A stretch of DNA of 64,000 nt. Source: Scenedesmus sp. ARA3 (lineage: Eukaryota; Chlorophyta; Chlorophyceae; Sphaeropleales; Scenedesmaceae). The stretch spans positions 196,272 through 260,271 of the forward strand of contig RWJK01001206.1 in assembly GCA_004335835.1 (NCBI GenBank). Reading direction: 5' to 3'. The notes beneath the pieces were generated by a model. It was not told where the DNA came from, searched no databases, and saw only the letters and a list, made by a program, of their open reading frames with translations. Both the position numbers and the translations under genes were made by a program. Positions within the stretch are counted from its first letter, which is position 1, and the number at the start of each line of letters is the position of its first letter. This document shows, one piece after another, positions 11,143 to 51,796 of this stretch.

Positions 11143-14100
11143 ATGACTGGTGGCGATCGGGCTGGTGCACCAGCAAAGAGCAGGGTGCGTTTGCAACTTT
11201 GCAGGCGCTGCTGCCGGCGAGCTGGTTGCATGTGTAGGCTTGAGACAGTGATTACAACAACAGTTCACTGTAGATGAGGACAGGGTGGATGGGCAGCGGA
11301 TCAGCACTGCTTTTGATGGTGCAGGGCCACTGCAGCAGTAGCACAGTCACCCATGCCTCAGCTCATGCCATCCTGCTGCACTCACCTGCTTCAGCACCTG
11401 CTATCATAACCGCCCACATAACTAGTCGATTCGCACTCAATGTTCTCTGAAGCAGTGATCAGGCATTACCAGAGCCACCCTCAACTGCCGCAGCACTACA
11501 CATGCTTCCAGCCAGCAACGAAGGCTCTGCGCATGCACACTGGCTAGCAAGAGCACCTGCCACTGCAGCACTGCACCCAACACGCATCCTCACACCAACC
11601 CCCAGCCCCTGAATCAGATCAACACCCCCTAAACCCCTCAATACACTCAAAAAAATAACAAACTTCCTGCAGGGCCTGCTCAAGGAGAAGCTCGAATTGG
11701 AGAAGGTGAAGACCAAGGATGGCAGGACACGCGTCACGCTCAAGCCTATTCCCGATGACCTCACCTTTGACAAGGTGCGGGCACTGGGGTTTTAGTGGGT
11801 AGTGTGGGTTAATGGGTTTTAGTGGTGCTGGGGTTTGTTGAGCATGTGCATTTCAAGCCCATCCCCGATGACCTCACCTTCGACAAGGTACGGGCACTGG
11901 GGGTTTTGGCAAGTCATTTGCATGGTGCTGGGGTTGACAGCATGTGCATGTGAAGCCTATCCTTGACGACCTCACCTTTGACAAGGTACGGGCTGGGGTC
12001 TTAGTGGCTAGTGCAATTGCATGGTGCTGGGGTTGAGAGTGCGCATTGCATTCCAAGCCCATCCCNNNNNNNNNNNNNNNNNNNNNNNNNNNNNNNNNNN
12101 NNNNNNNNNNNNNNNNNNNNNNNNNNNNNNNNNNNNNNNNNNNNNNNNNNNNNNNNNNNNNNNNNNNNNNNNNNNNNNNNNNNNNNNNNNNNNNNNNNNN
12201 NNNNNNNNNNNNNNNNNNNNNNNNNNNNNNNNNNNNNNNNNNNNNNNNNNNNNNNNNNNNNNNNNNNNNNNNNNNNNNNNNNNNNNNNNGACAAGGTACG
12301 GGCGCTGGGGTGTTAGTGGCTAGTGCAATTGCATGGTGCTGGGGTTGAGAGTGCGCATTGCATTCCAAGCCCATCCCTGATGACCTCACCTTTGACAAGG
12401 TACGGGCGCTGGGGTTTTAGTGGCAAGTGTGGTTTAATGGTGCCGGGGTTTGCGTGGCTAGTGTGGTTTAATGGTGCTTGGGTGCTGGGGTTTGTTGAGC
12501 ACGTGCATTCCAAGCCCAGCCTTGATGACCTCACCTTTGACAAGGTACGGGCTGGGGTTTTAGTGGCTAGTGTGGTTTCATGGGTTTTAGTGGTGCTGGG
12601 TTTATTTGAGCATGTGCATTCCAAGCCTAGCCCCAATGACCTCACCTTTGACAAGGTGCGGGCGCTGGGGTTTTAGTGGCTAGCGTGGTTTAATGGTGCT
12701 GGGGTTTGTCTTAATGGTGCTGGGGTTTGTTGAGCATGTGCATTTCAAGCCTAGCCTTGCTGACCTCACCTCTGACAAGGTGCGGGCACTGGGGTTTTTT
12801 TTTGTCAGCAAGTGCTTTCAACTGTGCTGGGGTGGAGAGCATGTGCAATCAGAGCCTAGCACTGGCGTTCATTGCAGCCGTGGCAGCCTCTCACAGGCGC
12901 TTCTGCTGTCCATCCTTCAGCATGTGCCTACTAAACAGCATGTAGGTGCTATTTGAAGTGCTTGAACCACGCAATGCATGCAATGCACGCTGCTGCTGCT
13001 GCTGCTGCTGCAGGGCTTCTACGTGTTCATCCGAGCGCTGCAGCTGCTGCGCAGCCACAACGAGGGAGTGGTGCTGGTGGGGCTGGGAGGCGCCAGCGGC
13101 AGCGGCAAGACCGCATTCAGTGAAAAGGTGCGTGGGCGTCAAGGGAAACAGTTGTGGTGCAGCCACACCAGCAGCAGCAGCAGCAGCAGAGGGCCTTTAG
13201 GGCTTGGTGCTGGTCGTGCTGGGGGCCGCTAGTGGCAGCGGCAAGACGGCATTCAGTGAAAAGGTGCGCAGCAGCAGCAGCGGTGGCAGTTGATGGGGTG
13301 CACTGCTGGTGGGGCTGGGAGGGGTCAGCAGCAGCGGCAAGACCGCATTCAGCGAGAAGGTGCGGAGCAGCAGCAGCAGCAGCAGTGTGTTGGTTGGGGC
13401 AGGGTGCTGGTGGGGCTGGGAGGCGCCAGCGGCAGCGGCAAGACCGCATTCAGTGAGAAGGTGCGCATCAGCAGCATCAGCAGCAGCGGCAGCAGCAGCA
13501 GTGGTGTGTTGATTAAGGCAGGGTCCTCGTGGAGCTGGCAAGAAGCAGTGGCAGTGGCAGCAGCCGCAGAGTAGCAAGAGGCGCAGGAAGCAGCAGTGCA
13601 GTTTGAGCTGCGGTAGTCAACTGAGGGTGTCGGCTGCCAGCCGACCGCTGGCGCAGCAGTAGCGGCGGCGGCAGTGGTCATGGCAGCGGCAGCAGCACGG
13701 CGGCGGCGGCAATGTCGGCCAGCAGCAGCATGGCGCTGTGCGCACTAGAGTATTTTTTCATGAGCAACTGCATACAAGACAGTCGCTGATACTGTTGATA
13801 TCTGTGCTGCTGTGTCCTCAGGTGAAGGACTTCATGCCGGGCATCATGGTCATCAGCATGGACAACTACAACGACGGCTCCAAGGTGGTGGACGGCAACT
13901 TCGACGGTGAGCGCAGCTGCTGCTGCCGCTGCTGCTGCTAGCTGCTAGCTAGGCTAGGGTGATGCATGATGCAGCTGATGGCTCCAAGGTGGTGGACGGC
14001 AACTTCGACGGTGAGCTGATGCTCCGTTGCTGCTGCTGGTGGTGCTGCTGTTGCCGGCTGAGCTGGCAGCTGCTGCTGGCGTAGCTTGACTTGTTGTAGA

Positions 14101-16544
14101 GTGCAGAATCGCTTGTTATGTGACCGGCTGACGCAAGCTGTGCACCTTACCTGAGCGCTTGTCTGCACTGCCGCTGCCCTGCTCGTGTTGCGCACAATGG
14201 CGGCCCGCGTCTGTTACATTTTTGTCACATAAAAACCACCAGACCCGCGCCTGACGGACTACGACCTGCTGCTGTCCAACCTGTCAGACCTCAAGGCGGG
14301 CAAGTCGGCAGATGTAAGTGGCAGGCTGCCGTTGCCTTTGTTTTTTTGAATTTGAATGAATGCATTGGTGTGCACATGCATCGTGTGCGTCGCCTTGCAA
14401 CTGGGGGCAAGTGATTCTGCCGCAAGGTGTCTTGTGCGCCGCATGCTCGGTGGCCTGGCGAGCAGTGCTCTTGTGCTCTCTGCTCACTTGCATTACTTCT
14501 GCAAATCCCAGAACTTTCAAGTAGTCCAAGCGCATTGGCTTCACCAACGCAGATCATACTCTCTCCATTTCTCTCTTCATTTCATCTTCGTTTCTGCTGC
14601 TTGCTGCCCAGCAGATCCCCATCTATGACTTCAAGCAGTCAAAGCGTGTTGGCTTCACCACCACGCCAGTGCCCTCCAGCCGTGTGGTGGTGCTGGAGGG
14701 CATCTATGCGCTGAATGAGAGGCTGAAGCACCTGCTGGACCTGCGTGTCAGCATTGCAGGTGAGGCTTGCAGGAAACACGTGCCGCTGGAGGAGCTTGGG
14801 CGGCTTGCAGGAGACGTCTGCAGCTTGCAGGAAACACATGAGCCTTGCAGGAAACATGCATGGCCCAAAGACATGCGCTTGAGCGCCGCGGTGAACGGGT
14901 GACATGCACATCTGTTGCTGGATGCGGTTCGTACGACTTGCAGGCAACACGTGCGGCTTGCAGGAAAACACACGCGGCTTGCAGGAACCTTGCGGGCTTG
15001 CAGCGCATTAAGGCACCTGCTGGACCTGTGCGTAAGCAGTGCAGGACGCCGCGCAGATAGTGTGCAGTTGGTTGCTGTGTTCCTTTGTCCTGTCATTGCA
15101 ACTCCTCCATCTTTGCTGCTGCTAACACTGTTGTGGCTGCTGCTGCTGCTGGATGGCAGGTGGCGTGCACTTTGACTTGGTCAAACGCGTGCTGCGCGAC
15201 ATCAGCAGGAGCGGGCAAGGCCCTGAGGAGATCATCCAGCAGGTGGGAGCTGCTGCTGCTGCTGCTTGAGGGGTTCAGCCTCCTCATGTCATGTTGTTGG
15301 TTCAAGCTCCTGCTCTGCCAATTGTGGGTGCGCTGTGTTACTCAGACAACTGTTGTCGTGTTGACCCTGAACATGCCCCTTGTCTACAACCTCAGCCTCA
15401 CTAGTTGAACACCCTGTCACCAGCACTTGTTGCAACACACGCAGACTTGTTGCAACACACGCAGATCACGGACACGGTGTACCCAATGTACAAGGCCTTC
15501 AATGAGCTTGGCCTCAATACTGCTCAGCCTCACCACCGTTCTTTCACAGCCTCAGTCTTACCTGTCACAATGACTGTTACTAACACATGTCATGTAACAC
15601 ACGCAGATCACGGACACGGTGTACCCCATGTACAAGGCCTTCATCGAGCCGGACCTCAACGCTGCTCAGCTGAAGATCCACAACAGCTTCAACCCCTTCA
15701 CCGGCTTCATGAACGCCACATATATTTTGAAGGCCAAGAGGCAGCAGGAGCTGTCGCAGCAAGCCGTGGTGGCGGTGCTCGGGGTAAGGGTTTGCGGTTT
15801 AACATGCGGTTTGTTTGATCATCAGGGTTTTAAGTTTGGTGTAAGGGTTTGGTTTTATGAACGCGTACTTTCTCAAGGCCAAGAGGCAGCAGGAGCTCAG
15901 TCAGCAGGCGGTGGTGGGGGAGCTCGGGGTGAGGGTTCTGCAGTTATCAGAGATGCACGACATCCACCTGCTGCCGCCAAACGAGGAGCCCGAGACCTGC
16001 GCCAGCTGGCTGCAGATCACTTGGCTTCACTTGCAAAATTGGCTGTGGCGCTGACCGAGTATGGTGCTTTCTTCTTGTCATTTTCTGTCGTTTTATGTTG
16101 GCAGGCTGACGCAGTGACAAAGACCGAGTCGGAGATGTACGACATCCACCTGCTCCCGCCAAACGAGGACCCGGAGACCTGCGCCAGCTGGCTGCACACC
16201 ATCCTGTCATAACCTCCGCCCATTCTGCTTTCTGGATTCCTGACTAACGTGTCAAAGGTGTTGCCAAAACCTCTATCTGACCACATTTCTGTCTTGTTTC
16301 TAACTGCGTGCTGGTCTTTACAACTTCAACTTCTGCATGCGCGCAGGCTGACGCGGTGACCAAGACGGAATCCGAGATGTACGACATCCACCTGCTGCCG
16401 CCAAACGAGGACCCCGAGACATGCGCCAGCTGGCTGCGCATGCGCAACAGGGACGGCCGCTACACGCTGCTCTTCGAGGAGTGGGTGACTGAGGGGCCTT
16501 TCATCATCAGCCCGCGGTGAGTGTATTGCTGCTGCTGCTGCTGC

Positions 16545-16585
<41 letters not shown>

Positions 16586-16794
16586 CGGCTGTGTCCAATC
16601 TGAGGTCAGCGTGCTTGTTCTGTGTGGCATGATGTCTTTTGACTACCACATCGGCACCATCATGCGCCGCACCTCACGCCCCTCCTCCTGCTGCTGCTGC
16701 TGCAGGATCCAGTTTGAGGTCAGTGTGCGCGTGCTGGGTGGGCTGATGTCCCTGGGCTACCAGATCGGCACCATCATGCACCACACCTCAAGTC

Positions 16795-16842
<48 letters not shown>

Positions 16843-18640
16843 GCAGGATCCAGTTTGAGGTCAGTGTGCGTGTGCTGGGTGGGCTGATGTCCCTGGGCTA
16901 CCAGATCGGCACCATCATGCGCCGCACGAGCACCATCGTCAGCGGCGCTGATGGTGTCACCAGCGTCAAGTTTGATGATGTGGAGGGGCTGGGCAAATAC
17001 GTGCAGGTGGGTGTGGGTGTGTGGTGGTGGGGGTGGTGAGGGGAGGGGGGCAGGGGTGGCTGGGAGGGATGTTGCTGGCTTTCCCGGTCTGGCTGCTGGC
17101 ACTGTGTGGACCTGAGCTTGTTGTGACTCACATGCATGAATAAACACAGCATGTCGACACACCAGTTGGCAGCATCCTGCTCGCTACGCAACTGGCGCGT
17201 CCGTCCAAGTTGCTGTCCCTTTGCTGCTTTTTGATGTTACAGGTGCAAGGCAAGGACCGCGACAAGGTGGCGTCCACAGCCGAGGCACTCGGCCTCACCG
17301 ACTTCATCCCGCGCTCATACATCGAGCAGGTGCAGCTTTCAAAGCTCGTCGACAACTTCCAGACTTTTACAGATGACGTCAAGCGCCGCTTCAGCATGAG
17401 CAGCAACCCCTCTGCAGCACCAGATGATGTGTATGGCCAAAGCCCTCCACTGTTTGGTGGGCTGTTAGGCCGCAGCCCGCTTGGCGGCAGCAGGGGAGCA
17501 GCAGGGTTGCGCGGCGGGCGCTTCGGCCGCCACGCGCGCGGCTCAGCGGCGGCCGCAGCAGCGGCAGCAGCGTTTGGTGATGACGATGACGATGACGGAG
17601 CAGCGGAGTATGGGGGTTCAGGGCTAGGGGATGAGGCGCTGCTGTCATGTTCGGCGCCGGTCCGAGGTTCTAGGCCGATCGCGATCCAGCCGCCGGCACG
17701 TAAGGCAGCAGCAGCAGGCGGCAGCAGCAGCCTCACGTCTGCTGCTGCCGGCGGCGGCGACATAGTGAGTCCCAGCAGCAGCGCAGCAGCAGCGGCAGGC
17801 AGCACGGTGGGTTGCGGCAGCATTGTGAGTGCTGCAAGCAGCATCGACGGAAATGGCAGCCCAGCAGGCAGCATAGAAAACGGCTCAGCTGCCGCTGCTG
17901 CTGCTGCTGCCGGCTTCCCTAGCAGCGCAGGTGGTGCAGCAGCAAGGGTAGCAGGTGTGCCACCTAGCGGCCACATTGCCGCTGGTGGCAGTGGCGGCAG
18001 CGAGAGCAAGCGCACTAGTTTGCTGGGTCAGCAGCTGCGGCGCGGCAGCAACCACGGCAGCAGCAGCAGCCTGGGCGGCGGCGACGCCGCACCCGCAGCA
18101 GCAGCAGCAGCGCCGGTCGGCACTCCTGAGGGGCAGTCAGGAGGGTTTGCGGAGCGTTCAGAGCGCTCGCAGCGGGTGTCTGCGATTGGCACGGGGGACT
18201 TTGGGGCAGAGGTTGGGGTTCAGGCTTTGCGGCGGCTGCAGGAACAGATGGAGGTTGTGGCAGAGGGGTTTAAGCGCCACTCGGGAATGCAGCTGCATCT
18301 GGATGCGCTTACGCATCAGTACAAGCACCTGAACGAGAGCATGGCAGCATTGACTGCGGCTACGCAGGCGCTCGGGGGGTGCGTGCAGCAGCTGCAGCAG
18401 CAGCAGCAAACTCAGCAGCCAGGACAGCAGCAAGCTAGCGGCAGCAGTAGCGGTAGCAGCAGCATCGCGGGAAGCACAACAGCAGCAGCAGCAGGCCTGG
18501 GAGCATGGCTGCCGAGGAGCCTGCTGCAGGGCGGCAGCAGTAGCAGCAGCAGTGTAGGTCTAGGGGTATTGGGTGCAGGGGTGTTGCTGGGTGCTGCAGC
18601 CGGCGCTGCGCTGTCACGTGCTGCTGCTGCTGGCCGGTAG
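11143..18640 (+). CDS. TTM: Triphosphate tunnel metalloenzyme with P-loop kinase-like domain (TTM1/2 type)
   Basis: Eleven exons join without a frame break to 848 aa: 11143-11184, 11673-11774, 13014-13127, 13822-13906, 14243-14313, 14615-14759, 15160-15242, 15607-15783, 16347-16516, 16847-17006, 17243-18640. The product follows the order of plant TTM1/TTM2. It has a uridine-kinase-like domain with Walker A GASGSGKT (residues ~74-81), then MDNYND and VVVLEGIYAL. A CYTH domain follows (EMYDIHLLPPNEDPETC, RMRNRDGRYTLLFEEWVT, FEVSVRVLGGLMSLGYQIG, VQGKDR). The C-terminal half is long and Ser/Ala/Gly-rich, and the protein ends in a hydrophobic GVLGAGVLLGAAAGAAL segment that looks like a tail anchor. 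Plant homologues hydrolyse pyrophosphate and sit on mitochondria. MYDIHLLPP stands where classical CYTH proteins have ExExK, as in plant TTM1/2. Several exon edges are repeated in the introns. Exon 1 is the least certain. Confidence 0.92.
11743..12800 (+). repeat. Array of at least eight copies of TTM exon 2 3' end plus its donor site
   Basis: The intact exon 2 ends DDLTFDK at 11774 followed by GT. The same end (GATGACCTCACCTTTGACAAG then GT) recurs with donor positions near 11888, 11987, 12297, 12400, 12546, 12658 and 12779, and more are probably hidden in the N run. The unit is about 100-145 bases and includes intron text (GCGCTGGGGTTTTAGTGG). Copies differ by substitutions. A truncated trace follows near 12840. 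Confidence 0.9.
12066..12289. other. Assembly gap (224 N)
   Basis: A run of N lies inside the exon 2 edge array of the TTM gene. The flanks on both sides are copies of the same repeat unit, so the gap probably hides further copies and its true length is unknown. Confidence 0.98.
13066..13465 (+). repeat. Four tandem copies of the P-loop exon end of TTM
   Basis: The intact exon 3 (13014-13127) encodes GLGGASGSGKTAFSEK and is followed by GT. Three partial copies end at about 13263, 13361 and 13459, each with GGxxSxSGKTAFSEK and a GTGCG donor. The second decoy reads GLGGVSSSGKT, so the Walker A motif has drifted. CAG runs separate the copies. Confidence 0.92.
13971..14012 (+). repeat. Decoy copy of TTM exon 4 3' end
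   Basis: Positions 13971-14012 repeat the end of exon 4 (GATGGCTCCAAGGTGGTGGA onwards, encoding DGSKVVDGNFDG) including the GTGAG donor that follows 13906. Confidence 0.85.
14765..15052 (+). repeat. Short repeats and a decoy of TTM exon 6 end
   Basis: From 14765 to 15000 the intron holds a dispersed series of GCTTGCAGGAAACACGTG-like units at irregular spacing. At 15006-15052 there is a diverged copy of the exon 6 end (RHLLDLCVSSAG versus KHLLDLRVSIAG). Confidence 0.7.
15458..16200 (+). repeat. Decoy copies around TTM exons 8 and 9
   Basis: 15463-15520 copies the acceptor side of exon 8 (ITDTVYPMYKAFNELGLN). 15846-15932 copies its donor side (LKAKRQQELSQQAVVGELG then GTGAGG). 15946-16013 and 16106-16200 copy the acceptor side of exon 9 (MYDIHLLPPNEDPETCASWL); the second keeps the AG acceptor and GCTGACGC start. 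The intact exon 9 begins at 16347. Confidence 0.88.
16520..16846 (+). repeat. Two decoys of TTM exon 10 start, with (CTG)n tracts
   Basis: Segments at about 16584-16675 and 16706-16790 repeat the start of exon 10 (FEVSVRVLGGLMSLGYQIG then TIMxxTS). The first has diverged to SEVSVLVLCGMMS. Each is preceded by (CTG)n; the run at about 16799-16842 directly precedes the acceptor CCGCAG of the intact exon at 16847. Confidence 0.9.
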
Positions 18641-18768
18641 CCGGCTATTGCCAAGGCGCCGCAAGGTTCATGCCATGCCGCACCTTTCGGTTGCCAAACA
18701 GGCCGTTTTCAGCTGTTGGCGAAGTCCGGCACCTTCAGTTGGCATCTGTGTCGTCTTGGATGGAGTAC

Positions 18769-23219: not shown

Positions 23220-23268
<49 letters not shown>

Positions 23269-26200
23269 TAAGGGATGACGCAAGCACCTGATAAGACCCG
23301 CAAGCTGGCTGCAAGCATGTGCAATCACACAGAAGCACAGACAAGAAGCCGCAGCAGCAGTAACAGCATTGGTCGTTCAGCTGCTATGTACACCACGCAT
23401 GCTGCCTGCCGGTCAACAGACAATACAGACAACACATGCGGCAGGAGCTGCGGATACTTCCACACAACGAAGCTTCCAACGCCTGTTGCAGCAACTGCAG
23501 CAGCAACCCACCTGCTGCTTGTGCCGGCAGCAGCGCCGCATGGTGCTCTGCCACGCTCATGCGGTCCAGCACTTTGAGGCGCGACCTGCCATCGGCCTGC
23601 CAGCTGAGTGCTGCTGCATCCAGCGCTGCTCGCCGCTTGTCGTTGACGAAGCCAGGGAAAAACTTGGCACCTGCGGCAGTGACGGTGGCCAGAAAACAGG
23701 GAAAAAACGGGTTTAGCAGCAGTTCAGGACTGCCAGCTATGCGGCAGCGCTGCTCGCCGCTTGTTGTTGACAAAGCCGGGGAAGAACTTGGCACCTGCGG
23801 CAGTGATGACAGTAAGTTATATACAGGCACAGGCTTGGGGGCAGTTCAGGCCTGCCAGCAGTGCAGCAGCAGAACTTGGCGCCCTGCTGCCACATCATAT
23901 CAAGGTCGGCACAGGTTCAGCAGCAGTTTGGATCGGCCAGCTCAGCGCTCAAACCTTTGTACCGCCTTGTACAGCTGCCTGTATAACCACCATTTTTGCA
24001 GATACTGTCTGGTTCAAATGCCTGTACCGCTCGCCTGCCACGCTCCAGTGCATGTAGCAGCACACTATCAGGAGAGGTACTGCATGCACTGCCTGTGCAG
24101 CTCTGGCCGAACACAAGTTTAATGTGTACTGCTTGTACTGCCTGGCTCAAATGCATGTACTGCCTGTACTGCCTGTACTGCCTGGCTCTAATGCATGTAC
24201 TGCCTGTACTGCCTGTACTGCCTGGCTCAAATGCCTGTACTGCTCACCAGCCACGCTCTCCAGAGCACAAACTGCATGTAGAGTAATGCTTGTTTTGCAT
24301 CTGCTGCCTTGCACAACTGCCATATCAACTAGCACGTACTCCTTGGCTCAAATGCCTGTACCGCTCACCAGCCACGCTCTCAAGCGCTTCAAGCGGCACC
24401 GCGAATGCAGTCACCGGGGTTTGGGGGTCGATCGGAGCGTTGGGCATCACAAACGCGCCTACTGCTGCGCTGTGCTGGCCGTGCTTGCCGCTGCTGTTCT
24501 CTGCTAGCACCACCTTGTAGTAGTGCGTGGGCACTGACACCAGCTGCGGCGGCTTGCCTGCAAGGTGCGGCAACAGGTGCGGCATTTAGTAAGCCTACTG
24601 CTGAAGCAGCAGGTTCAGCACCGCCTTGTAATGTAATGTGTGGCTGCAGCAGCCACAGCACACATATGGTGTTGCACTGAGAAGTGCATTGCACATGCGG
24701 ACTGCTTTCTGCATGCTGCTGTGTGTCTCGATCAGCTGGCGCCTCATGGCGGCAAGCAAGGCCGTACTGTGTTTGCTGCATGACTGACCCTGCAGTTAAA
24801 GCAGCCAGAGCAGCAGCAGCTTGCTGTGCCGCACTCACCAATCATGGGGTGCCGCATCTCCCACTTGCCGGAGCCGCGTGCGTCCTGCTGCGGCAGCCAC
24901 AGCGGCCCTGTCACGATGTACACGCCATCAGACACCTGCACCAGTCAAAGCATCAGCAGCATCAGTAGCAGAATGTTAGTGATGCTAACTTCATAACTGC
25001 ATCCACCTTCTGTAGCACATGCAGCAGCGCCAACCTGATCTACGCTGAAACGCATCTGCATGCATCACTGCAGCACCCTGTCAACACAGCCGTCTGCTGT
25101 CCTCTTGGTCTGCGAGGTGGCGGCAGCTCGCTGACATGCCTAGAAAATGTGATTTATACAAGGGGGGCACAGAAGAAATTCCAGGACATCATCACAAAAA
25201 ACCCCAACGGGGTCCACCCCCCCCTTGCACTCACCTCAAAAATTTGCGCCTGCAGGCCCCTGACTTACTGATATGTTGATTGGGAGTAACAATAATGTAT
25301 ATTGACGACTGCAGCTGTGTTAACGTGTGGTTGCAGCAACCTGTCCGCCAGTTTGTTGACCAAAAAAATTGTTGCTGCTGAGATTCGACATGCGCCACAC
25401 CAGTGGTCAGTCGATGGTAAGCTGCTGCTCATGTAAATAAGTGCTCACTAGCCTTGAAAAGGTGTGCATTGGTTATTTTATGAGCCAAGCTTTCAAACAA
25501 GCTTATGCGTGTCTCAATCAGGCACCTGGCAAAAAAGTTATGAAATCCAAGACAAAAAGTTGACCAGGCCCCTGCCCCACCCCCCCCACCCCCCCACCCA
25601 AAAAGCACGCTGGATGGCCTTAAAAACTTTGCAGTAGGTGTTTTTTTTATGTTGAATTACATGTCCTAACGTTTTCAGGCCGAAAGGAATGATGATGCTG
25701 TCAGCGGATGGAGTGCCCCCCCCCCTGTTATATATGTAAAAATGTCAAACATGCCAAAGCAAGTGCCCACCTTGACTGCGTCCTTGACAAACTTCTCGAA
25801 GCGCGCCCAGTAGTCGCGGTTGAAGCCAGGGCCCACCTGCAGGAGGGTAAACCCCACAGGGTCAAAGTTTGTGATGTGTGTCGATGCCAGCAAGTTTGGC
25901 TTGCAAGGAGTGACCATACAACCTTTCCATTTCAACCATGAGCAAACAATCGGCTGAGTCAGTAGCAACACGGCATGCCGGACACCATGCTGCATGGACA
26001 TCAACAAGCGTGCAAAGCTCGCCTGCCTACGCTCCGGCACAGCTAGGGTTTGAAATTTGACGCACCTGCGGACTGATGTTGCTCAGGCTAAATGTGTCAT
26101 TCATCGCCTTCTGGCTGGCTCGGTGGTTGGCAGCAGGAGCCTGCAACACCATATAGCAGCAGCAGCAAACGGCACACCCGCAGGCAGCTGCTGATCAGTG

Positions 26201-34125: not shown

Positions 34126-34156
<31 letters not shown>

Positions 34157-36096: not shown

Positions 36097-36133
<37 letters not shown>

Positions 36134-36992
36134 TTGCCAATTTGCAGCAACTTGGCCTCAGAGGATGCTGGCCGCGTGTTTGTCACGGACGCCATTCTGA
36201 CCACCATCATGTGCGCCGCCAAGAGCGTGTACAGCTGGGACGTGGTGGTCACACGTGTAGGGGACAAGCTGTTCTTCGACAAGCGCGAGGGCAGCAGCCT
36301 GGACCTGCTCACAGTGAATGAGACCGCGCCAGAGCAGGTGGGGCTTCTGAGTTGTGCCAGGCTGCATCTGGGGGTGTGTCGTCTGTCATTGCTTCAAGCA
36401 CACGGTGTGTGCGCGAGCAGTAACCCATCATGTACCTGGCTTCGTTCATGCATTGCTGGCAGTTGATGTATCCTACTGCAACCCTGTTGTGGCTGCTGCT
36501 GCTGCTGCTGCTGCTGCCAGGTGCCAGCGAACAAGGACAGCATCAACGGCGTGCAGCACACCTACCAGCTTGACCCTGCATCAAACATCACTGCCCTGCT
36601 GCTGCTGCTGCTGCTGCTGCCACCACAGGTGCCCGAGGACAAGGACAGCATCAACGGCGTGCAGCAGCTGAGCCTGGAGGCCACCATGATCAGCCAGAAC
36701 CTCAGCCAGCAGCTGCTGGTCAAGGGAGGCGAGAAGTGAGTACTGCTGTAGCACTCTGTGCTGTGACGACATTCTACCAGCTGCAGCATCAGGCATGAGA
36801 TATGAGAATTGAATCTAGCCAGCAGCTGTCAAGGGCGGGGAGGAGGGGGTGTGCTGCGAGACCAGCCCGCAGCCTGCCTCTTGGCCCGGCAGCGTCATCA
36901 TCATCACGCAGCGTTGCATGTTGACTAAGATGTATATAGCAAACGAAACCAACGTGTTGTATTGCTGCATGTGGCAGCTTGCCTAAGCTGAC

Positions 36993-37024
<32 letters not shown>

Positions 37025-37517
37025 GCTGCTGCCGCTGCTGCTGCTGCTGCTGCAGGTCCAGCCTGGGCAACCCCAACCCCTTCGACGACGGCACAGGGGA
37101 GCTGGCCAGCGTAGGATACAAGTGAGCGGTGCTTCATAATTTATTATCATGTTTGAAACCTTGCTGCAGACTGAACCTTGTTGCAGAATGACAGACCCCT
37201 TGTTGCAGAATGAGGAACCCTGTGGTATCTGCACCATGCACTGTGTTTGTGCTGTGCTGCGATGTGTGGGTGTGTCTCTCAGCAGTGTGTTCTGCTGCTG
37301 CTTGCCGGGCTTCTTTGCAGTATCCTTTTCACTGCAGGGATGCCGGCGTGGACCTTGCTGCTGCTTGTGTTTCACTCAACCTGCTGCTGCTGCTGCCACC
37401 ACTCTCCGCTTGCCTAATGTTGCAGGTACGGCCGCTGGACGCTCAACAGCGACGCTGGCGTGGACATCGTGGTGCGCTGCATGTGACCAACACTGCTGCT
37501 GCCGCACTGCCTTTCTG

Positions 37518-37555
<38 letters not shown>

Positions 37556-39227
37556 AGCTGCAGCTGTACAGGTACCGCCGCTGGACGCTCAACAGCGACG
37601 CTGGCGTGGACATCGTGGTGCGCTGCATGCGACCAACACTGCTGCTGACGCACTGCCTTTCGTCACTGATTGCTGCTGCTGCCGCTGCTGCTGTGCAGGT
37701 ACCGCCGCTGGACGCTCAACAGCGACGCTGGCGTGGACATCGTGGTGCGCTGCGAGATTGATGGCGTGATCAACAACAAGGGCGAGGACCAGCTGCTGAG
37801 CATCAAGGTGTGTGTGATGTGACTGGTTTGTATGGTGACTGTTGTGTCCATCACCATGTGCCAGTAGGAGTGGTGTGGCTGAGATCAAGTGGGCGAGGAC
37901 CAGCTGCTGAGCATCAAGGTGTCGTGTGTATTGGCTTTTATGTTGAGTTGTTGAACTGGGTGCAGGTGCTCGCGCATGCTGGCGGGCAGGGATGTGCAGC
38001 TGCTCAGATGCAGGGATTTGCAGCGACTAGTCACGCTTGCTGTTGCTCCTGCTGCTGCTGCTGCTGCTGCTGGTGCTGCTGCTGCTGCTTTCTCTCCCAT
38101 TAGGCGTTGAACGTCTTTGACCTGCCCGCCAGGGACTTACGCAAACCTGCTGGCTCCCTGCCCTTCTCACCTCCTGCAAGGTCAAAACTCACACTCCCGC
38201 TGCTGCTGCTACTGCTGCTCTGATCTGCAGGCGCTGAACGAATTTGACCTGCGCGCCACGGACTGGCGCAAGAAGCTGGAGAGCCAGCGCGGAGCAGTGC
38301 TGGCCTTTGAGGCCAAGAACAACCTGGCCAAGCTGGCCAAGTGGACCATGGCTGCACTGCTGGCTGGAGCTGAGCTGGTCAAGCTCGGCTATGTCAGCCG
38401 CGCCGGCCCTAAGGACAACGGCAACCACGTCATCCTCGGCACGCAGGTGTGTGGGTGTAGGCCTCAAGTGTGTGGACATGTGGTTAAGACAACGGTCTTG
38501 GATGTTGTGTTTTTGTGGATGTTGTGTTTTTGTGGGTGCGGCTTAGGAGGTGTGGTCGACATGTCGGGGTCAGCTGGGTGCTGCACCTGACACAACAGAC
38601 GAGCAAGCGGCACGACCTGGCCAGCCAGATGAGTCTCAGCTGTCGCTGCTTTGCACAATAACTCTGTCTGACTGTTGTAATTCTTCCAATATCTGCAGAC
38701 GAGCAAGCCGCGCGACCTGGCCAGCCAGATGTCCCTGAACCCGGAGCACTGCTGGGGCATCGTGCGCGCACTGGCTGACTGGCCAACTGCTGACTGCTGC
38801 TGCTGCTTGCTTTTTCAAACCTGCAGACGAGCAAGCCGCGCGACCTGGCCAGCCAGATGAGCCTGAACCCGGAGCACTGCTGGGGCATCGTGCGCGCACT
38901 GGCTGACTGGCTAACTGCTGACTGCTGCTGCTGCTGCTTGCTATTTTTAACCTGCAGACGAGCAAGCCGCGCGACCTGGCCAGCCAGATGAGCCTGAACC
39001 CGGAGCACTGCTGGGGCATCGTGCGCGCCCTGGTGGACATGCTGCTGCGCCAGCCCGAGGGCAAGTACCTGCTGGTGAAGGACCCCAACAAGGACCTGCT
39101 GCGGCTGTATGCTGTGCCCGAGGACGCCTTTGAGACAAACTATGTGGAGGAGCCGCTGGCGGATGCAGATGAGGTGCCTGCGGAGTCGGCACCAGCTGCA
39201 GCAGCAGATGAGGCCGGCGATGAGTAA
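32793..39227 (+). CDS. EIF3D: Eukaryotic translation initiation factor 3 subunit D
   Basis: Eleven exons join without a frame break to 541 aa: 32793-32961, 33074-33129, 33782-33982, 35076-35221, 35528-35623, 36148-36337, 36629-36735, 37056-37121, 37699-37807, 38231-38446, 38958-39227. Human eIF3d is about the same length. The start [17 protein letters not shown] and [14 protein letters not shown] match the family. The basic QRRxRE region then follows, and further on [85 protein letters not shown] and [10 protein letters not shown]. The tail is acidic. eIF3d binds the 40S mRNA entry side and can bind the 5' cap. The gene has the richest set of exon-edge decoys in the window, but the intact reading frame survives in all exons. 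Confidence 0.97.
34030..34080 (+). repeat. Decoy of eIF3d exon 3 end
   Basis: Positions 34032-34077 repeat the end of exon 3 (CACTGGAGGGAGCAGCAGC) with a GTGCGT donor in place of GTGAGT. The intact donor is at 33983. Confidence 0.85.
34715..35000 (+). repeat. Three decoys of eIF3d exon 4 start
   Basis: [15 protein letters not shown] is encoded at about 34724, 34841 and 34952 before the intact exon at 35076. All three have AG acceptors and 111-124 base spacing. In the third, the Trp codon TGG has become TAG. Confidence 0.95.
35900..36147 (+). repeat. Two decoys of eIF3d exon 6 start
   Basis: [21 protein letters not shown] is encoded at about 35910-35985 and 36029-36095. The intact copy begins at 36148. 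Both decoys have CGCAG acceptors and are followed by (CTG)n. Confidence 0.94.
36523..36628 (+). repeat. Decoy of eIF3d exon 7 start
   Basis: [12 protein letters not shown] at 36523-36559 copies [12 protein letters not shown] at 36629-36664, each after (CTG)n and CCAG or ACAG. Confidence 0.9.
37001..37055 (+). repeat. (CTG)n tract at an eIF3d acceptor
   Basis: The last ~60 bases of the intron before exon 8 are almost only CTG units, ending CTGCAG at the acceptor. Confidence 0.9.
37427..37698 (+). repeat. Two decoys of eIF3d exon 9 start
   Basis: [16 protein letters not shown] is encoded at about 37427-37482 and 37571-37627 before the intact exon at 37699. Both keep AG acceptors and end at CGCTGCATGYGACCAACACT, a shared intron-side continuation. 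Confidence 0.94.
37889..38150 (+). repeat. Decoys of eIF3d exon 9 end and exon 10 start
   Basis: 37889-37918 repeats GGGCGAGGACCAGCTGCTGA and the following bases of exon 9 with a GTGTCG donor. 38103-38150 repeats the start of exon 10 ([13 protein letters not shown] versus [13 protein letters not shown]) with a TTAG acceptor. Confidence 0.88.
38598..38957 (+). repeat. Three decoys of eIF3d exon 11 start
   Basis: [20 protein letters not shown] is encoded at 38699 and 38827 as well as in the intact exon at 38958. An older, diverged copy (ACGAGCAAGCGGCACGACCT) lies at 38598. The two recent copies are nearly identical over about 80 bases. Confidence 0.95.
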
Positions 39228-39249
39228 GCAGGAGCAGGATGGATGTCGT

Positions 39250-40317: not shown

Positions 40318-40545
40318 ATGCCGAACACGTGGCTGATGTAGTGCCAAACACGTGGCTGATGTAGTGCCAAACACGTGGCTGATGTANNNNNNNNNNNNNN
40401 NNNNNNNNNNNNNNNNNNNNNNNNNNNNNNNNNNNNNNNNNNNNNNNNNNNNNNNNTGCCAAACACGTGGCTGATGTAGTGCCAAACACGTGGCTGATGT
40501 AGTGCCAAACACGTGGCTGTGACAGCTGATGTGGTGCCAAACACG
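40318..40545. repeat. 23-base minisatellite carrying the G-box CACGTG
   Basis: The unit TGCCAAACACGTGGCTGATG plus TAG is repeated at least six times, three before and three after the N gap. Every unit has the palindrome CACGTG. The last unit has an inserted TGACAGC block and a CACGCG variant. Confidence 0.92.
40387..40456. other. Assembly gap (70 N)
   Basis: The N run lies inside the 23-base minisatellite, so array length is unknown. Confidence 0.98.
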
Positions 40546-42620: not shown

Positions 42621-42672
42621 GTGCATATGCGTTACCACCATCAGCAACATGCAACATGCCGTAAATGAAACC

Positions 42673-45192: not shown

Positions 45193-45808
45193 TCAAAGCG
45201 TCATCTTCTCCCGCACTGCCGCATCCGCCTTTGCCAGCTGCTTATGGTGCTGGCCCAGCTTGTGTGCCGTGGCAAGCCACACAAAGCACATCGCAACACC
45301 TGCTGCTCCTACGCCAGCTTGGCCCAAGCTCCACTGGACATCTGCAGCACGGCAGCAGCAGCAGCAGCAGCAGTGCAGCTTGGCAACTTGCTTTGAAAGC
45401 GCCATGCAGCTTTCAGCAACACCAACCCAAACAAACGGCAACAACACGGGCTTGCTCAGCTGGTAAGGGAATTGCGTGTTTATCTGATAGCAGCGCGTTG
45501 TTTGGAAGATGCAGAAGCCACACGCATTGCATTGCTGGCTAGGTTGACTCACCCAGCACTTGGAAGGAAGCAGCAGCCAGCGCATCCCCCAGCTGCTGCA
45601 CCACCGTGGCAATGCGCATTGTGACAATGATCAGAACCAATGGTGCATGCAAGCACTAGAAACACTGCGCTGTCACCAGCAGTCCACCCACCCAGTACTT
45701 GGAAGGCAGCAGCAGCCAGTGCATCCCCCAGGCGTTGCACCACCGTGTCGATGACAAGCTTGGCCGAGTACTTCTCGTCACGTGACACTACAGTGAACAG
45801 CACCTGGA

Positions 45809-45843
<35 letters not shown>

Positions 45844-46714
45844 TTGATTAGTGCTGAAAGCTTGGCGAGTACTTCTCACTGCGTAACACAACGGTGAACA
45901 GCACCTGCCAGCAGCAGCAGAGCAGCAGCAGCAGCAGCAGCAGCAACAATGAGCATGAGCAGCAGGTGTGCGCCAGCTGCTACGAACTGCGAAAACTGCG
46001 CCAGCGCACAGCATGCATCACTACAAAACCCAACCCCATTGCACGCAACCTGCTAGAAAGTTTCAGCAGTCCAGTCCCTGATTGGGTGATGGAGAAGAGC
46101 AGGCAACACTCAACTACATATCTGCACGCACCTCCCGTGACGGCCTGTACATGGCACACGCAAAGACCTTGCGCACCACCTCAGACACAGCATCCCCATC
46201 AGGGCACTAACACAACAGCAACATACCAACAAACGTCCACGCACCTCCCGTGACGGTCTTACACAGCATACGCAATAAGACCTTGCCTACCACCCGAGGC
46301 ATAGCCACACTGGTATAACCACAACATAACCAACTGCAAACGCCTACCCACTCCCGTGATGGCCGATATACTGCGTAGGCAAAGACCTTGCGCACCACTT
46401 CAAACAGCAATACTGGCAGAACTAACAACATAACCAACTTCAAACGCCCACCCACCTCGCCTGAAGGCCTGCAGACGGCGTATGCAAAGACCTTGCGCAC
46501 CACCTCAAAGATAACAACCACGACAGGGCACAAACACACCAGTGAGCATAATAACACATGTGCACGCACCTCCCGTGATGGCCTGTACACTGCATAAGCG
46601 AAGACTTTTCGCACCACCTCAAACACAGCCACCATGGCAGGGCTGGGGGCGCTGCTGATGCTGCAGATGCCCGCCAGGCAGATCAGAGGACCCAGGCCCA
46701 AGGCGGCCTGCAGC

Positions 46715-46796
<82 letters not shown>

Positions 46797-48043
46797 CAGC
46801 AATTGTCAATGACATCAGCAGCACCACAGCAGGGCTGGGGGCGCTGCTGATGCTGCTGCAGCAGCAGCAGGATAGAATGTGTGTGACTTTGCGGCAGCAC
46901 CATTGAAGGTCTGGCAAGCTGCTCAATTACATCTACCATTGAAACAACTCTTAACTGGACATTCCAGCTGGCTGCTGGTTGCAAAGAGGTGCATCGGCAG
47001 GATGCACGCTTCTGCTGCTGCGATACAGTCTACTCTGTACAGAAACGCCAGCCGGCTGCAACACATAAAGCCGATAAACTTCCTGCAACCCACACCTGCA
47101 TGCCTAGGTAGCGCAGCAGGCTGCTCATGGCAAAGAGTTGCATCAGCAGGAGTGCAGTCTTTGTACACGGAAGGACTAGTCACTGCCGAGCACAAGCTGC
47201 TGAGTGGTTGAAACTCCCACCTATGCGCCTGGGCAGCGCAGCAGGCGCCACCCAGACACTATCATACACCCTTGCAACTGCAAAGACCAACCGACCAGCC
47301 AAACTCTTACCTGCATGCCTAGGTAGCGCAGCAGGCTGCTGGTGGCGAAGAGCTGCATCAGCAGCATGCATGCTGCGTATGCTTTACTGCACTCGTTTTG
47401 TGTGCAGAAGACCACCCTGATGCAGTACAATCTGCCTGTAATCCACCAACCTTACCTGCATGCCTAGGCAGCGCAGCAGGCTGCTGGTTGCAAAGAGCTG
47501 CATCAACAGGATGCATGCTGCGTATGCTTTACTGCACTCATTTCGTTGCAGATCCAGCCTGATGCAGTAAAATCTGCCATCAGTTTACAACCCTCACCTG
47601 CATGCCTAGGTAGCGCAGCAGGCTGCTGGTTGCAAAGAGCTGCATCAGCAGGATGCATGCAGCGGACCAGGTGTTGAGCGCAGCAAAGAAGGCTGTGCGC
47701 TGCGAGGGGCCCCGCACAGAGGTGGACACCACCAGCGCGCGCTGGAAGTACATCAGCGATCCCACAACCTGTTTGATAGGATAGCAGCAGCAGCAGCGGC
47801 GGCGGCGGCGGCGGTGACGCAGCAGCAGGGGATTTGAATGAAAGTGGACACCACTAGCGCGCGCTGGAAGTACATCAGCGAGCCGACCACCTGCAGGCAG
47901 CAGCAGCAGCAGCAGCAGTTATGGTCAGCTTTGTGTAGTAACAAAGGGCATCAAAGAAGGCTGTGCGCTGCGAGGGGCCCCGCACAGAAGTCGAGACTAC
48001 AAGAGCGCGCTGGAAGTGCATCAGTGAGCCGACGACCTGAGAG

Positions 48044-48074
<31 letters not shown>

Positions 48075-51000
48075 ACTGATGGTCAAGTTTGTGTATTAAC
48101 AATGGGCAGCAAAGAAGGCTGTGCGCTGCGAGGGGCAGCATGCGGAGGTGGGCACCACTAGAGCGCGCTGGAAGTACATCAGTGAGCCAACCACCTGAAA
48201 GACGCAACAGCAGCAGCAGCACTTATGGTCCCGTTCGTGTGGTAACAATGGGCAGCGAAGAAGGCTGTGCGCTGAGAGGGGCCCCGTACAGAAGTCGAGA
48301 CTACAAGAGCGCGCTGGAAGTACATGAGGGAGCCGACAACCTGTGTGGTTTTATCACAAGCGGCAGCAGCGGCGGCAGCAGCTGCAGCAGTAAGAACTAC
48401 GGCGCATTTAAGAACAGGGATGCCATACTAAGCAACATGACTTTTCATGGTCAAACGTCCCAATAACCTGAGGCACACGCGCACAGAATGCAGCGCAAAC
48501 GCAAACCCCTCTGCCAGCTCAGGGGCCTGCATGCGGTGCTGGAAGTTATCTTGCTGCGCACGACACCCACACTTCATACACACATGACTGCACCAAAACA
48601 ATTTCAAATTCAAAAAGGTACCACAGACTGCACTGCCGCCACTCACATAGGTCAGCAGCAGGTTGCCGCACAGCATCAGCAGGTATCTGCTGCGCAGGAT
48701 CATCTGGAAGCCCAGCAGCACATTGCGCAGCCTTAGCCCTAGCTGCTCCGGCAAGCTCCTGCTGCTGCTGCTGCTGCTGCCGCAGGGCGCTGCAGCCAGC
48801 TTCCCTTGCGCTGCTGCTGCTGCCGGCTCCGTTGCTGCTGCTGCTGCCACAGCTGCAGAAGCAGCAAGTTTAAATGTTACACTCCCTTTCTCAGCGTCAC
48901 TCGCGCGCCGCTTCAACTGCGCTGCCTCCCTGCTGCTGGCGGTTGTTAGGAAACAACATTCCTGCGCCGCAGCTGCGCTGCCAGCTGCTGCTGCTGCATG
49001 CCCATGCGTTCCCGCTGCCACCCCTGCTGCTGATGTGGCAGTAAAGCTATGCACACCCCCAGCCAAGGGCCGTACCCTGCATACCAGCTGTGCAGCCAGC
49101 AGCTGCAGCACCGCAGATCCTAAAATCAGCCCAGATGCAGGTGCTACTGCTGATGCGTCTCCTGCCCCTGCCGCACCACTGCCGCTGCTGCTGCTGCTGG
49201 CTCTTTCGGCCACAAGTCCTGCTGCCCAAGCAACCAGCATGGCCATGAGAGAGCCCATCAACTGCCCGAGTGTGGCACCAGCTGATATGAAGCCAAACAG
49301 GCGGGCACCGGCCTGCAACAGCAGCAGCAGCGGCAGCAGCAGCATGAATGGTAGGTGTGAGCCCATGAGCTGCCCCAGTGTGGCACCAGCTGAGATGCAG
49401 CCAAAAAGGCGAGCGCCGGCCTGCGGCAGCAGCACAGCACCTTCTAGTAAACAGATAGTCAGCACATATACACAAATAGTCAACAGAGTCATTATACAGT
49501 CAACACTAAATCACACCTCAGGCATGAAGGCGTCCAAGCGCAGCGCGCCCAAAAGCTGCTGATGCACAACAGGTTCATCACATTGACCCAACCCTGAAAT
49601 ATAACAATAAAACAGAAATAGAACGCACCTCAGGTGTGAAGGCGTCTGCGCAGCGCGCCCACAGGCTGCTGATGCACACCAGGTTCATCACGTTGACCCA
49701 CACGTAGAAGGCTCCACGCAGCAGCCGCTGCGGCCGGCTCAGCAATGGATCGCCGTGCCGGCTGCTGACAGAGCGCCTTCTGCTGCTGCTGCTGCTGGTG
49801 GTATTGCTGCTGCTTGCGCTTCTGTTGCTGCCCGCATCAGTGCCTTGGCTTTGTGGGGCTGCCTCATGTGCCTGCTGCACCTGCTGCAGAAGATGGCGAA
49901 GGGTGCCGGCAGCAGGGCCCGCTGCCGCTGCTGCTGCTGCCGCCGCTGCTGCAGGAGGGCAGCCACTGCTGGAGCTTCTGCTGCGCCTGCTGCCACGGCT
50001 CAGCAAGCTACTGCTGCTGCTGCTGCTGCTGCCGCTGCTTCTGCTGCTGCTTCTGCTGCCGTTGTTGCTGCCCCGCTGTGCATGGTGCGGCTGATGGCTG
50101 TTTGTGCCAGCGTGATATTGTTGTGCCGGATCCTGCCCTGGCGGTGAGTCTGATATGTGCAAACGTAGGCCATGATACACCGCATGCACTGGCACTGCTG
50201 CTGCTGCTGCTGTACTGTGAACCAAAGGTACATGTTGAAAAGATGGTCCATGCGCTAGCACCTGCCTGCTCCAATGCTGCTGCTGCTGCTGCTGCTGCTG
50301 CAAGTGCTGCTGGGTGAGTCCTACTGGCTCAACTGGCAGAAGCTGCGGCTTGCTGTGCTGCTGCTGCTGCTGCTGCTGCCAATGCTGTAAGTTCTGCTGC
50401 AACTGATGAGGTAACGCTCCTGCAAGGACTGAGTCAATGGCTGCATAGCTGTACAAGAAATAGAACACTGCATGGGAGAGGGATGCGTGAAACCGTCAGC
50501 AGCAGCAGCAGCAGCAGCGTGTCAGGTTAGAAAGTGCAATGTCAGACGGTATTAGTTGCAGGGGCAGTGCAGCAATGCATTATGATGCTCTGTATGTCAG
50601 CAGGCAGCGTGTGCTGCTGCATAATCAACAGTTCACAAGCCTGCCAGCTTACCTAGCAACACTCCTGCCATAAAGTAATAGAACTGCTGCAATGCTACCT
50701 CCCTGCAGCAGCAACAGCAGCATCGGCAGCAGCGTTGCAGTGTCAGCGATGCAGTGGCAAACACTGTTCTGAGCCAACTTGTGATGTTCGACGCGCTGCG
50801 TGGCATCGCTCCCAGTGCAGCTGCTGCTGCTGCTGCAGCTGCTGCTGTTGTCAAACGCACCTGCTGTTGGGGTGGCTTCTCGAAAGGAAGGCTGAGGCAG
50901 CTGGTATGAACAGCAGCGTCACAGCCAGCGTGCATGCACACAGTGCTGGCAGGCTTGATGTGCCTGCAGCCCACAGCACGAGGCAGTGCAAGCAAAGTGA

Positions 51001-51796
51001 ACATCAACAACATGGCGCACGGTGTCAAACCTAACACGCGCAGGTTACTATAAACCAAATCCTGGCAGCTGCCTGGGTGCATAGAGCAGTCTTGCACAAC
51101 GCTGCACTGCAATGCACCGCACTGACTGCAGAGCAGAGCAGAGCAGAGCATGCACGGATTAGCCTTGAGGACCCAGCTGCTTTGCTGCTGCTGGGCATGT
51201 TTGCCTGTATGGCAGGCCAGCCAGCCGCTGCAATGCAACCTGGCCATGGCTTTGCATTTGCAGAACCTGAATAATAAAAGACTATGAGCTCACCAAGGGA
51301 TATGCCTGCATCCTCCCGCAAAGGCAGCAGCAGGAAGTACGAACCCAGCAACTGCAGCACAAGGCGGGCAGCCAGTAGTGTCAGGAGCTTGTGGCTGCGC
51401 TTCTATAGCTCGTCCTGAACAATTGGGGCTTGGTGTAGCATGTGAGCAAGCAAGATTTTGAAACCACAGTGGTGCACAAGATGGTTTGAGCTATGGTTAG
51501 CCTGCTTGCATTTCCATAGTGTAGAGCAGCACTGCGTGGTGTGCAGGCAGATGCTGGCCATAGGCTGCGCCCACATATGTTCTACTTACACTGAAGAGGG
51601 CGAAGAAGCTGTACAGCACTGATGGCACCTGCAAGACGATCAACCCAGCATCCAAGGGTCATTGCTGCTGCTGTTGCTCCTGTTGCCCGCTCGGACTGCA
51701 TGCTGCCTGGCACCTTACCTCATGCGCGTGTACATGTACGAAGACACAAAGAGTGCGATGCAGCAGGCCGCGAAAGCTGCGTGCTGTCTTTTGCAT
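45193..51796 (-). CDS. ATP/ADP-translocase-like MFS transporter
   Basis: Ten minus-strand exons join in frame to 822 aa: 51796-51719, 51628-51590, 51402-51294, 50820-50653, 50467-49629, 49312-48647, 47768-47598, 46707-46570, 45803-45692, 45341-45193. The N-terminus HAHEVPSVLYSFFALFS then LGSYFLLLPLRED matches the start of bacterial NTP/NDP-exchange-type carriers. Further family blocks are AFYVWVNVMNL, ARLFGFISAGATLGQLMGS, QRTAFFAALNTWSAACILLMQL, VFEVVRKVFAYAVYRPSREV and the signature LFTVVSRDEKYSAKLVIDTV then QRLGDALA. Many hydrophobic segments are present. Two long low-complexity inserts (Gln/Ser-rich in exon 5, Ala/Ser-rich in exon 6) make it much longer than bacterial relatives. The substrate and membrane cannot be told from the sequence. 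Exon 4 reads a Cys run through a CTG tract and is the weakest part. Confidence 0.8.
45550..45642 (-). repeat. Decoy of transporter exon 9 end
   Basis: Minus-strand 45642-45551 repeats the exon 9 end (VVQQLGDALAAASFQVLG) and a GTGAGT donor. The intact donor is at 45691. Confidence 0.88.
45862..45945 (-). repeat. Decoy of transporter exon 9 start with (CAG)n
   Basis: Minus-strand 45904-45862 encodes VLFTVVLRSEKYSP, a diverged copy of VLFTVVSRDEKYSA at 45803. Both follow (CTG)n tracts in the transcript direction. Confidence 0.88.
46125..46515 (-). repeat. Four decoys of transporter exon 8 end
   Basis: Minus-strand copies of EVVRKVFAYAVYRPSRE plus donor lie near 46510-46450, 46407-46348, 46300-46240 and 46190-46128, after the intact exon end at 46570. 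Unit length is about 105-115 bases. Some carry frame changes (the third has an extra base near CGCAATAAGACC). Confidence 0.93.
46712..46875. repeat. Long (CAG)n run and duplicated exon 8 fragment
   Basis: About 26 CAG units at 46715-46795 precede (minus strand) the acceptor of transporter exon 8. At 46826-46870 the block AGGGCTGGGGGCGCTGCTGA, which is part of exon 8, is repeated. Confidence 0.9.
46960..47530 (-). repeat. Five decoys of transporter exon 7 end
   Basis: The exon 7 end (LLMQLFATSSLLRYLGMQ, intact donor after 47598) is copied on the minus strand near 47525-47455, 47372-47308, 47250-47215, 47160-47095 and 47000-46965. Most keep GT donors (GTAAGG, GTAAGA, GTGGGA, GTGTGG). Identity falls with distance from the intact exon. 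Confidence 0.94.
47835..48350 (-). repeat. Four decoys of transporter exon 7 start
   Basis: VVGSLMYFQRALVVSTSVRG, intact from 47768, is copied on the minus strand from about 47890, 48038, 48195 and 48343. All keep a CAG acceptor region. Unit length is about 120-155 bases. So exon 7 is flanked by arrays on both sides. Confidence 0.94.
49365..49432 (-). repeat. Decoy of transporter exon 6 start
   Basis: Minus-strand copy AGARLFGCISAGATLGQLMG at about 49426-49365; the intact exon (AGARLFGFISAGATLGQLMG) begins at 49312. Both follow GCAG. Confidence 0.92.
49510..49600 (-). repeat. Decoy of transporter exon 5 end
   Basis: Minus-strand 49592-49515 repeats the exon 5 end (WVNVMNLVCISSLWA) with a GTGTGA donor replacing GTGCGT at 49628. 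Confidence 0.88.

Follow-up and report, generated by a model that had tools for sequence, protein, structure and literature searches.

The genome assembly of Scenedesmus sp. ARA3 comprises 87.3 Mb in 1567 contigs, and one 64-kb stretch of contig RWJK01001206.1 – referred to here as the window – contains genes whose introns carry partial copies of the neighbouring exon edge together with its splice site. Pfam matches identify a uridine kinase and CYTH gene (g4/g5, 11143-18640, plus strand), a DNA/RNA endonuclease gene (g6, minus strand), a Maf gene (g7, minus strand), and an eIF3d gene (g8, 32793-39227, plus strand); Armadillo models match only the first part of g10 (minus strand), and g2 and g3 are without homology support. 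A sequence-only reading of the window had proposed that these copies, or decoys, number more than 50, obey a strict rule of direction with one copy continuing into the full exon, originate by tandem duplication of segments spanning a splice junction, and could lengthen introns. Here, we describe the copies in the window and in 20 further loci of the same genome, and weigh how they may have arisen.

Loci, gene models, and scan

The scan covered 241.6 kb on 16 contigs of this one species; stretches fetched from outside the window are labelled L011, L023, and so on, and one of them (L028, 227 bases) was left out. Exons were predicted from the same sequence by an unsupervised gene finder trained on the window and the fetched stretches, with a donor consensus of CAG/GTGAG and an acceptor consensus of CTGCAG/G (478 donor sites). 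Before any counts were made, 90 predicted exons were deleted – 57 that are copies of a neighbouring exon, and 33 internal exons shorter than 20 bases – leaving 428 exons (median 135 bases) and 380 introns (median 251 bases). The G+C content is 57% overall, 62% in exons, and 54% in introns; the overall value, the CAG-rich sequence, a radial spoke protein, and a dynein heavy chain in L011 are all in keeping with a green alga.

Self-comparison gave 82 clusters of copies, of which we set aside 13 that are intergenic or at an edge, one in g9 (where the model is probably on the wrong strand), and two in L021 (with repeats about 800 bases apart), leaving 66 within genes; P values rest on 65, with the single exon-internal cluster omitted. 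The 48 acceptor and donor clusters provide 46 junction pairs, or 42 nearest pairs after removal of four with mis-called exons. The matches listed in a protein search of the whole genome were to exons, and the known decoys of L011, which presumably contains a dynein heavy chain gene (recognised by eye), were not among them; such a search is therefore blind to decoys.

Exon edges are copied locally in many introns

The copies lie close to one another. Within the window there are 94 direct pairs no more than 2.5 kb apart, no direct pairs farther apart, and six inverted pairs, and across all stretches 189 local direct pairs compare with seven more distant and 12 inverted ones. Thirty-one junction clusters are in the window – one each in g2, g3, and g7, five in g6, seven in g4/g5, and eight each in g8 and g10 – and others occur in 13 loci beyond it, on 10 contigs if the window's own is counted. 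A rough estimate from span and period gives about 65 decoys in the window, in agreement with the proposed figure, and self-comparison, gene models, Pfam matches, and the eIF3d alignment confirm that exon edges are copied there together with their splice sites. Clusters overlap 65 of 375 predicted introns and hold 15% of intron bases, and the median length of introns touched by them is 363 bases, versus 229 otherwise, which supports the suggested lengthening.

In an alignment of eIF3d with its human counterpart, stretches that are repeated in the gene model have a single equivalent in human eIF3d, and it is the final copy that continues into conserved sequence, as had been proposed. Pfam matches to eIF3d are found at a single locus (eight exon matches), and are located at the intact copies. 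Related sequence at unrelated loci would be expected of a transposed, introner-like element; when two window regions were searched across the genome, one matched only itself and its own local copies, and the second, from eIF3d, matched elsewhere only triplet-repeat stretches among the matches listed.

The arrangement of the copies is highly regular. Exon-end copies lie downstream in all 21 nearest pairs and exon-start copies lie upstream in 21 of 25, giving 42 of 46 for both types as scored, and the four contrary pairs look like gene-finder errors. For two of these (16105 and 36521), the exons that continue into conserved protein begin at 16347 and 36629 (with a Pfam match from 36626), and for the other two (49420 and L027:7184) the model ran a single exon across a (CTG)n/(GCA)n-like stretch separating two copies. 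The strict direction thus stands as an observation but not as a rule in its own right, because tandem duplication over one junction can leave no other arrangement; being mostly geometry, it is a pointer to mechanism and no separate discovery.

The duplicated unit is mostly 100-190 bases long and holds one live splice junction. Junction and nearest decoy are 101-273 bases apart in the 42 nearest pairs (quartiles 121, 134, and 155; none below 100), with remainders modulo 3 distributed 12/16/14; the exon part has quartiles of 40, 54.5, and 67 bases, and the intron remainder 70, 80, and 99 bases. The units include live intron sequence beside the splice site, and are not purely exonic AGGT-bearing units. 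The intron part is still similar in at least 31 of the 42 pairs, and Tandem Repeats Finder (TRF) reports arrays of the whole unit, both of which support an origin by tandem duplication of junction-spanning segments.

Tandem duplications in the scanned genes are concentrated at predicted splice junctions

A predicted splice junction is covered by 62 of the 66 in-gene clusters: 25 are at acceptors, 23 at donors, nine cover a whole exon, and five a whole intron, with three intron-only and one exon-internal. Some of the whole-exon cases (by eye, at least those at 13063, 16541, and 34713 in the window) amount to acceptor or donor arrays with a decoy exon left in the gene model. If duplications fell uniformly over genes shrunk to their length before duplication, 45% of clusters would be intron-only and about 55% would cover a junction, excluding exon-internal placements, and simulated decay and detection reduce the intron-only share just to 0.396-0.438 over six settings. 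The probability of three or fewer intron-only clusters among 65 at a share of 40% is 5e-11, a value that, like the other P values for clusters, is too small because clusters are clumped yet treated as independent. Stretches outside the window alone have 31 junction and three intron-only clusters (P=6e-5), and the four Pfam-supported window genes have 21 and none. Even if all 13 intergenic or edge clusters are counted as intron-only, the share (16/78) is still below 40%.

A second detector, TRF, does not favour the conserved exon. At periods of at least 84 bases, all 19 in-gene TRF arrays lie inside junction clusters, six of them being inner stretches that do not themselves reach the exon. Detection bias as the whole explanation is countered by TRF together with the six simulation settings, and gene-finder bias by the exon remainder, which is strongly coding in 42 of the 62 junction clusters and weaker in the other 20. 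Shorter arrays behave differently: those with periods below 60 bases show no junction bias (32 intron-only, 24 exonic, 12 intergenic, and seven set aside), and only three arrays have periods of 41-83 bases. Two of the three intron-only clusters are by eye short-period minisatellites (27 and about 15 bases), and the third resembles one with a period near 50 bases.

A search with short repeats masked (E=0.01) yielded 60 junction clusters, made up of 25 acceptor (A), 24 donor (D), eight class E, and three class W cases, besides three intron-only (I), three class X, and 11 class N clusters, with two skipped; its three intron-only matches overlap clusters classed as junctional (window 24003-24387, L017:3019-3171, and L026:1609-1910); a block-shuffled control of this masked, relaxed search gave no matches. 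The scan of 241.6 kb for junction-spanning versus other in-gene duplications therefore leaves the proposed association with junctions standing. The bias is not entailed by the geometry of tandem duplication, and is the main finding. Five intergenic clusters are without coding signal, and duplication therefore occurs outside genes too.

The copies as possible drifting pseudo-exons

The splice-site dinucleotide (GT or AG) is retained in 62 of 65 copies, and in 40 of the 42 nearest, such that the lost splice sites described in the sequence-only reading prove to be rare. The real site has the higher splice-site score in 29 of 42 pairs and the decoy in 10, with three tied. Twelve junctions carry two to six decoys each, and divergence from the exon is higher in the farthest than in the nearest copy in nine of 12 arrays (lower in two, tied in one); the proposal that copies differ in age is in keeping with this, but the result is suggestive only (P=0.065). 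In arrays with at least two decoys, changes by codon position are 8/1/21 when assigned to the exon and 73/81/114 when assigned to decoys, a count in which 29 sites are ambiguous, some arrays are counted at both junctions, and the whole-exon arrays of three window genes are included. Indels in the exon-derived sequence shift the reading frame in 12 of 13 cases, their lengths not being divisible by 3. The frameshifting indels and the decoy-assigned changes fit drifting pseudo-exons.

Features and other repeats in the window

The clusters in genes with Pfam matches are listed in Table 1.

Table 1. Positions of exon-edge copies and related clusters in the window
Feature	Coordinates	Strand	Remarks
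Uridine kinase/CYTH gene: exon-end copies with GT, downstream of live donor after 11774	11740..12847	+	Six decoys compared; encloses assembly gap 12066-12289
End copies of P-loop exon (13014-13127), downstream	13063..13559	+	Copy 13332-13460 kept as exon by gene finder, hence scored whole-exon
Exon-end copy downstream; live donor after 13906	13873..14037	+	Self-comparison, pair scoring
Exon-start copy upstream of intact exon starting 15607	15451..15670	+	Self-comparison, pair scoring
Exon-end copy downstream; live donor after 15783	15703..15945	+	Self-comparison, pair scoring
Exon-start copies upstream of intact CYTH exon starting 16347	15946..16440	+	Model exon 16105-16212 is one copy
Exon-start copies upstream of intact exon starting 16847	16541..16927	+	Self-comparison, cluster list
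Endonuclease gene: exon-start copy (live acceptor 23670) and exon-end copy (live donor 24369)	23621..24387	-	
Endonuclease gene: exon-start copies (26555), exon-end copies (27594), 84-base array	26514..28054	-	
Maf gene: cluster over two predicted junctions	30764..31093	-	
eIF3d: weak cluster over predicted junctions	33930..34156	+	72% identity
eIF3d: exon-start copies upstream of intact exon starting 35096	34713..35124	+	Evidence includes human alignment
eIF3d: two exon-start copies upstream of intact exon starting 36148	35878..36220	+	Evidence includes human alignment, Pfam
eIF3d: exon-start copy (36521) upstream of intact exon starting 36629	36493..36666	+	Pfam, sequence
eIF3d: two exon-start copies upstream of intact exon starting 37699	37421..37753	+	Evidence includes human alignment
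eIF3d: exon-end copy downstream; live donor after 37807	37780..37928	+	
eIF3d: exon-start copy upstream of intact exon starting 38231	38074..38271	+	
eIF3d: three exon-start copies upstream of intact exon starting 38958	38596..39033	+	Unit 131; evidence includes human alignment
g10: eight clusters at predicted exon starts and ends	45547..49700	-	

Several other repeats are present. Past the end of the eIF3d gene lies a copy of its final coding part (39147-39350), and coding edges without a splice site are therefore also duplicated. On the minus strand, a cysteine-rich coding end including its stop codon is present in three copies with a period of about 418-435 bases (41753-43034), where the plus-strand model g9 is probably wrong, and four copies of a 185-base unit without coding signal lie downstream of the uridine kinase gene (19093-19854). 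A 262-base array at the window end (63282-63922), with a coding-like stretch on the minus strand, is probably another exon-edge array cut off by the end of the window. The inverted pairs match 317-970 to 5730-6359, together with four further stretches inward, and g1 (minus strand) and g2 (plus strand) look like a diverged inverted gene pair. Both N gaps in the window (12066-12289 and 40387-40456) fall within tandem arrays, as would be expected of repeats that reads could not resolve. Intron-rich stretches free of clusters are L012, L015, L016, L018, and window positions 54509-58056, with a radial spoke gene (Pfam 3.2e-97) among them.

Origin of the copies

We consider it fairly probable that the copies arose by genuine tandem duplication of a unit, mostly 100-190 bases long, with one live junction, and that repeated rounds have left the outer copies in the intron. 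The unit could be duplicated at the DNA level by break fill-in or template switching, followed by unequal exchange, and successive rounds at one junction would line up outer copies along the intron while one copy stayed joined to the exon body. The spliceosome would normally skip the outer copies because each is half an exon without a partner site, and duplication would be tolerated because the intact exon also remains; the net effect would be longer introns. Two accounts may be offered for the near-absence of purely intronic events: exon edges may be especially prone to mutation, or arrays may be renewed by continued pairing of the constrained exon with its copies.

Several observations weigh against this account. 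Differences between copy and exon by codon position are 45/33/135 for the nearest pairs and 23/23/79 for those farther out, an anomalous excess at third positions because a free decoy compared with a constrained exon should stay at or below 1:1:2. The P value of this excess in the nearest pairs is 0.00025; it rises to 0.10 with a 1.35-fold and to 0.24 with a 1.48-fold mutability of third positions, both factors being guesses drawn from these data themselves (the second is 114 divided by the average of 73 and 81). Indels per site are 0.0057 in exon parts versus 0.0406 in intron parts, 7-fold rarer where a 2-fold difference is expected. The intron part has z below 4 in 11 of the 42 nearest pairs at similar exon divergence (0.092 vs 0.093), although one of these (L017:6026) aligns in BLAST (95/111), leaving at most 10 without intron homology; at L023:9077 (cluster L023:8982-9420) the exon-end copy shares 45 of 46 bases with the exon, and the intron on either side is unrelated, with no similarity past GTATG. 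Pairs are nearly uniform in exon divergence (chi-squared 61, 41 degrees of freedom, P=0.023 for over-Poisson spread), where a steady birth of copies should give a wide range. The clusters are also clumped, with none in four of the 18 loci of at least 4 kb (L012, L015, L016, and L018), and the exons behind the junction calls are predicted ones.

The third-position excess, rare exon indels, missing intron homology, and uniform divergence would be explained if the copies were allele-like from the start, and such an initial difference may be biological, through exchange between diverged homologues, or a product of haplotype misassembly. A more tentative proposal, which we regard as possible and on balance doubtful, is that splice junctions are hot spots of tandem duplication in this lineage; in its boldest form, homologues or sisters would pair in exons only, introns being too divergent to pair, and a template jump where homology ends would lay down a second junction from the other allele, such that introns would grow outward from splice sites. 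If true, this would explain the junction specificity, the allele-like third-position differences, the near-uniform divergence, the intact splice sites, and an unrelated intron beside a near-identical exon edge.

An assembly artefact, in which sequence from two diverged haplotypes or from unmerged contig ends was interleaved and exon edges doubled with different intron stubs, is unlikely. It draws on much the same observations, since the third-position-heavy differences, near-uniform divergence, intact splice sites, and unrelated intron at L023:9077 look like two alleles; moreover, the assembly has N gaps, and the lack of copy spacings below 100 bases recalls short-read lengths. However, two alleles do not sit easily with rows of two to six decoys at 12 junctions, nor with a single eIF3d locus whose region matches elsewhere only triplet repeats, among the matches listed, and both the placement of the two window gaps inside tandem arrays and the frameshifts in 12 of 13 indels count against an artefact.

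Use of the copies as alternative or extra exons kept by selection is distinctly improbable. The frameshifting indels count against it, as do the decoy-assigned changes (73/81/114), the single occurrence in human eIF3d of the stretches repeated here, and the lengths to the best partner site, which are multiples of 3 in just 19 of 45 cases, not clearly above 15. This is despite the third-position excess, the few indels in exon-derived parts, the GT or AG kept in 62 of 65 copies, and the 57 copies that the gene finder took for exons.

Little probability likewise attaches to an ordinary process of random tandem duplication, in which selection removes exon-internal events and those across junctions are more readily detected thanks to the conserved exon. 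A junction would be spanned by about 55% of non-exonic placements in any case, and the five non-coding intergenic clusters mean that duplication is not limited to junctions; but geometry and detection together leave 40-44% intron-only in the six simulations against 3/65 observed, TRF finds 0/19 intron-only with no favour to the conserved exon, and the most generous count reaches 16/78.

Intron gain as in potato, with the copy as a new mini-exon and the inner part of the unit as a new intron, is very improbable indeed: the potato duplication crosses an intron-exon boundary like the acceptor-type units here (PMC4974935), but the conserved eIF3d reading requires the copies to be skipped, and acceptor-like seams in donor-type copies (9/21, vs 28% of 1510 random intron sites) are not clearly above background.

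If tandem duplication at live junctions is real, these arrays provide a dense natural test set for spliceosome choice among near-identical competing sites, and a test of whether exon-intron borders influence where DNA duplicates. They are also a warning for gene finders and RNA aligners, as the 57 copies mistaken for exons here attest.

Comparison with known systems

Tandem repeats in introns of this genome also take the form of minisatellites with periods below 60 bases, which are without junction bias, unlike the arrays with periods of at least 84 bases. Fill-in at DNA breaks is a reported route to small local tandem duplications, and those are mostly shorter than 100 bases with no exon-edge preference stated in the part of the report available (PMC8355091), whereas the units here are mostly 100-190 bases and lie at exon edges. 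In the polyubiquitin UBC array, splice sites (dual-specific in UBC) are also repeated in tandem, but the repeats are coding monomers and the sites are used in isoforms (PMC10809524), and here they are partial exons in introns. The Rogers model likewise has tandem duplication make extra splice sites, although the unit is an AGGT-bearing exonic segment and the outcome a new intron (PMC3443670); the unit described here holds a live junction.

The closest parallel is the potato RdRp gene, where a tandem genomic duplication across an intron-exon boundary was reported as intron gain (PMC4974935). The duplicated segment crosses an exon-intron boundary there as it does in 62 of 66 clusters here, and the sequence-only reading, which knew of no matching named system, overlooked this case. 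The potato case concerns one gene, and RNA reads show its copy being spliced as a new exon, alongside a new intron (PMC4974935), whereas here there are dozens of cases, the copies are apparently skipped, and the donor side is involved as often as the acceptor side. A genome-wide account of junction-crossing duplications was not found in the open-access literature, judged by titles and the openings of abstracts. As far as these sources go, junction-crossing duplication itself has already been published once, in potato, and the new element is the bias of tandem duplications toward splice junctions.

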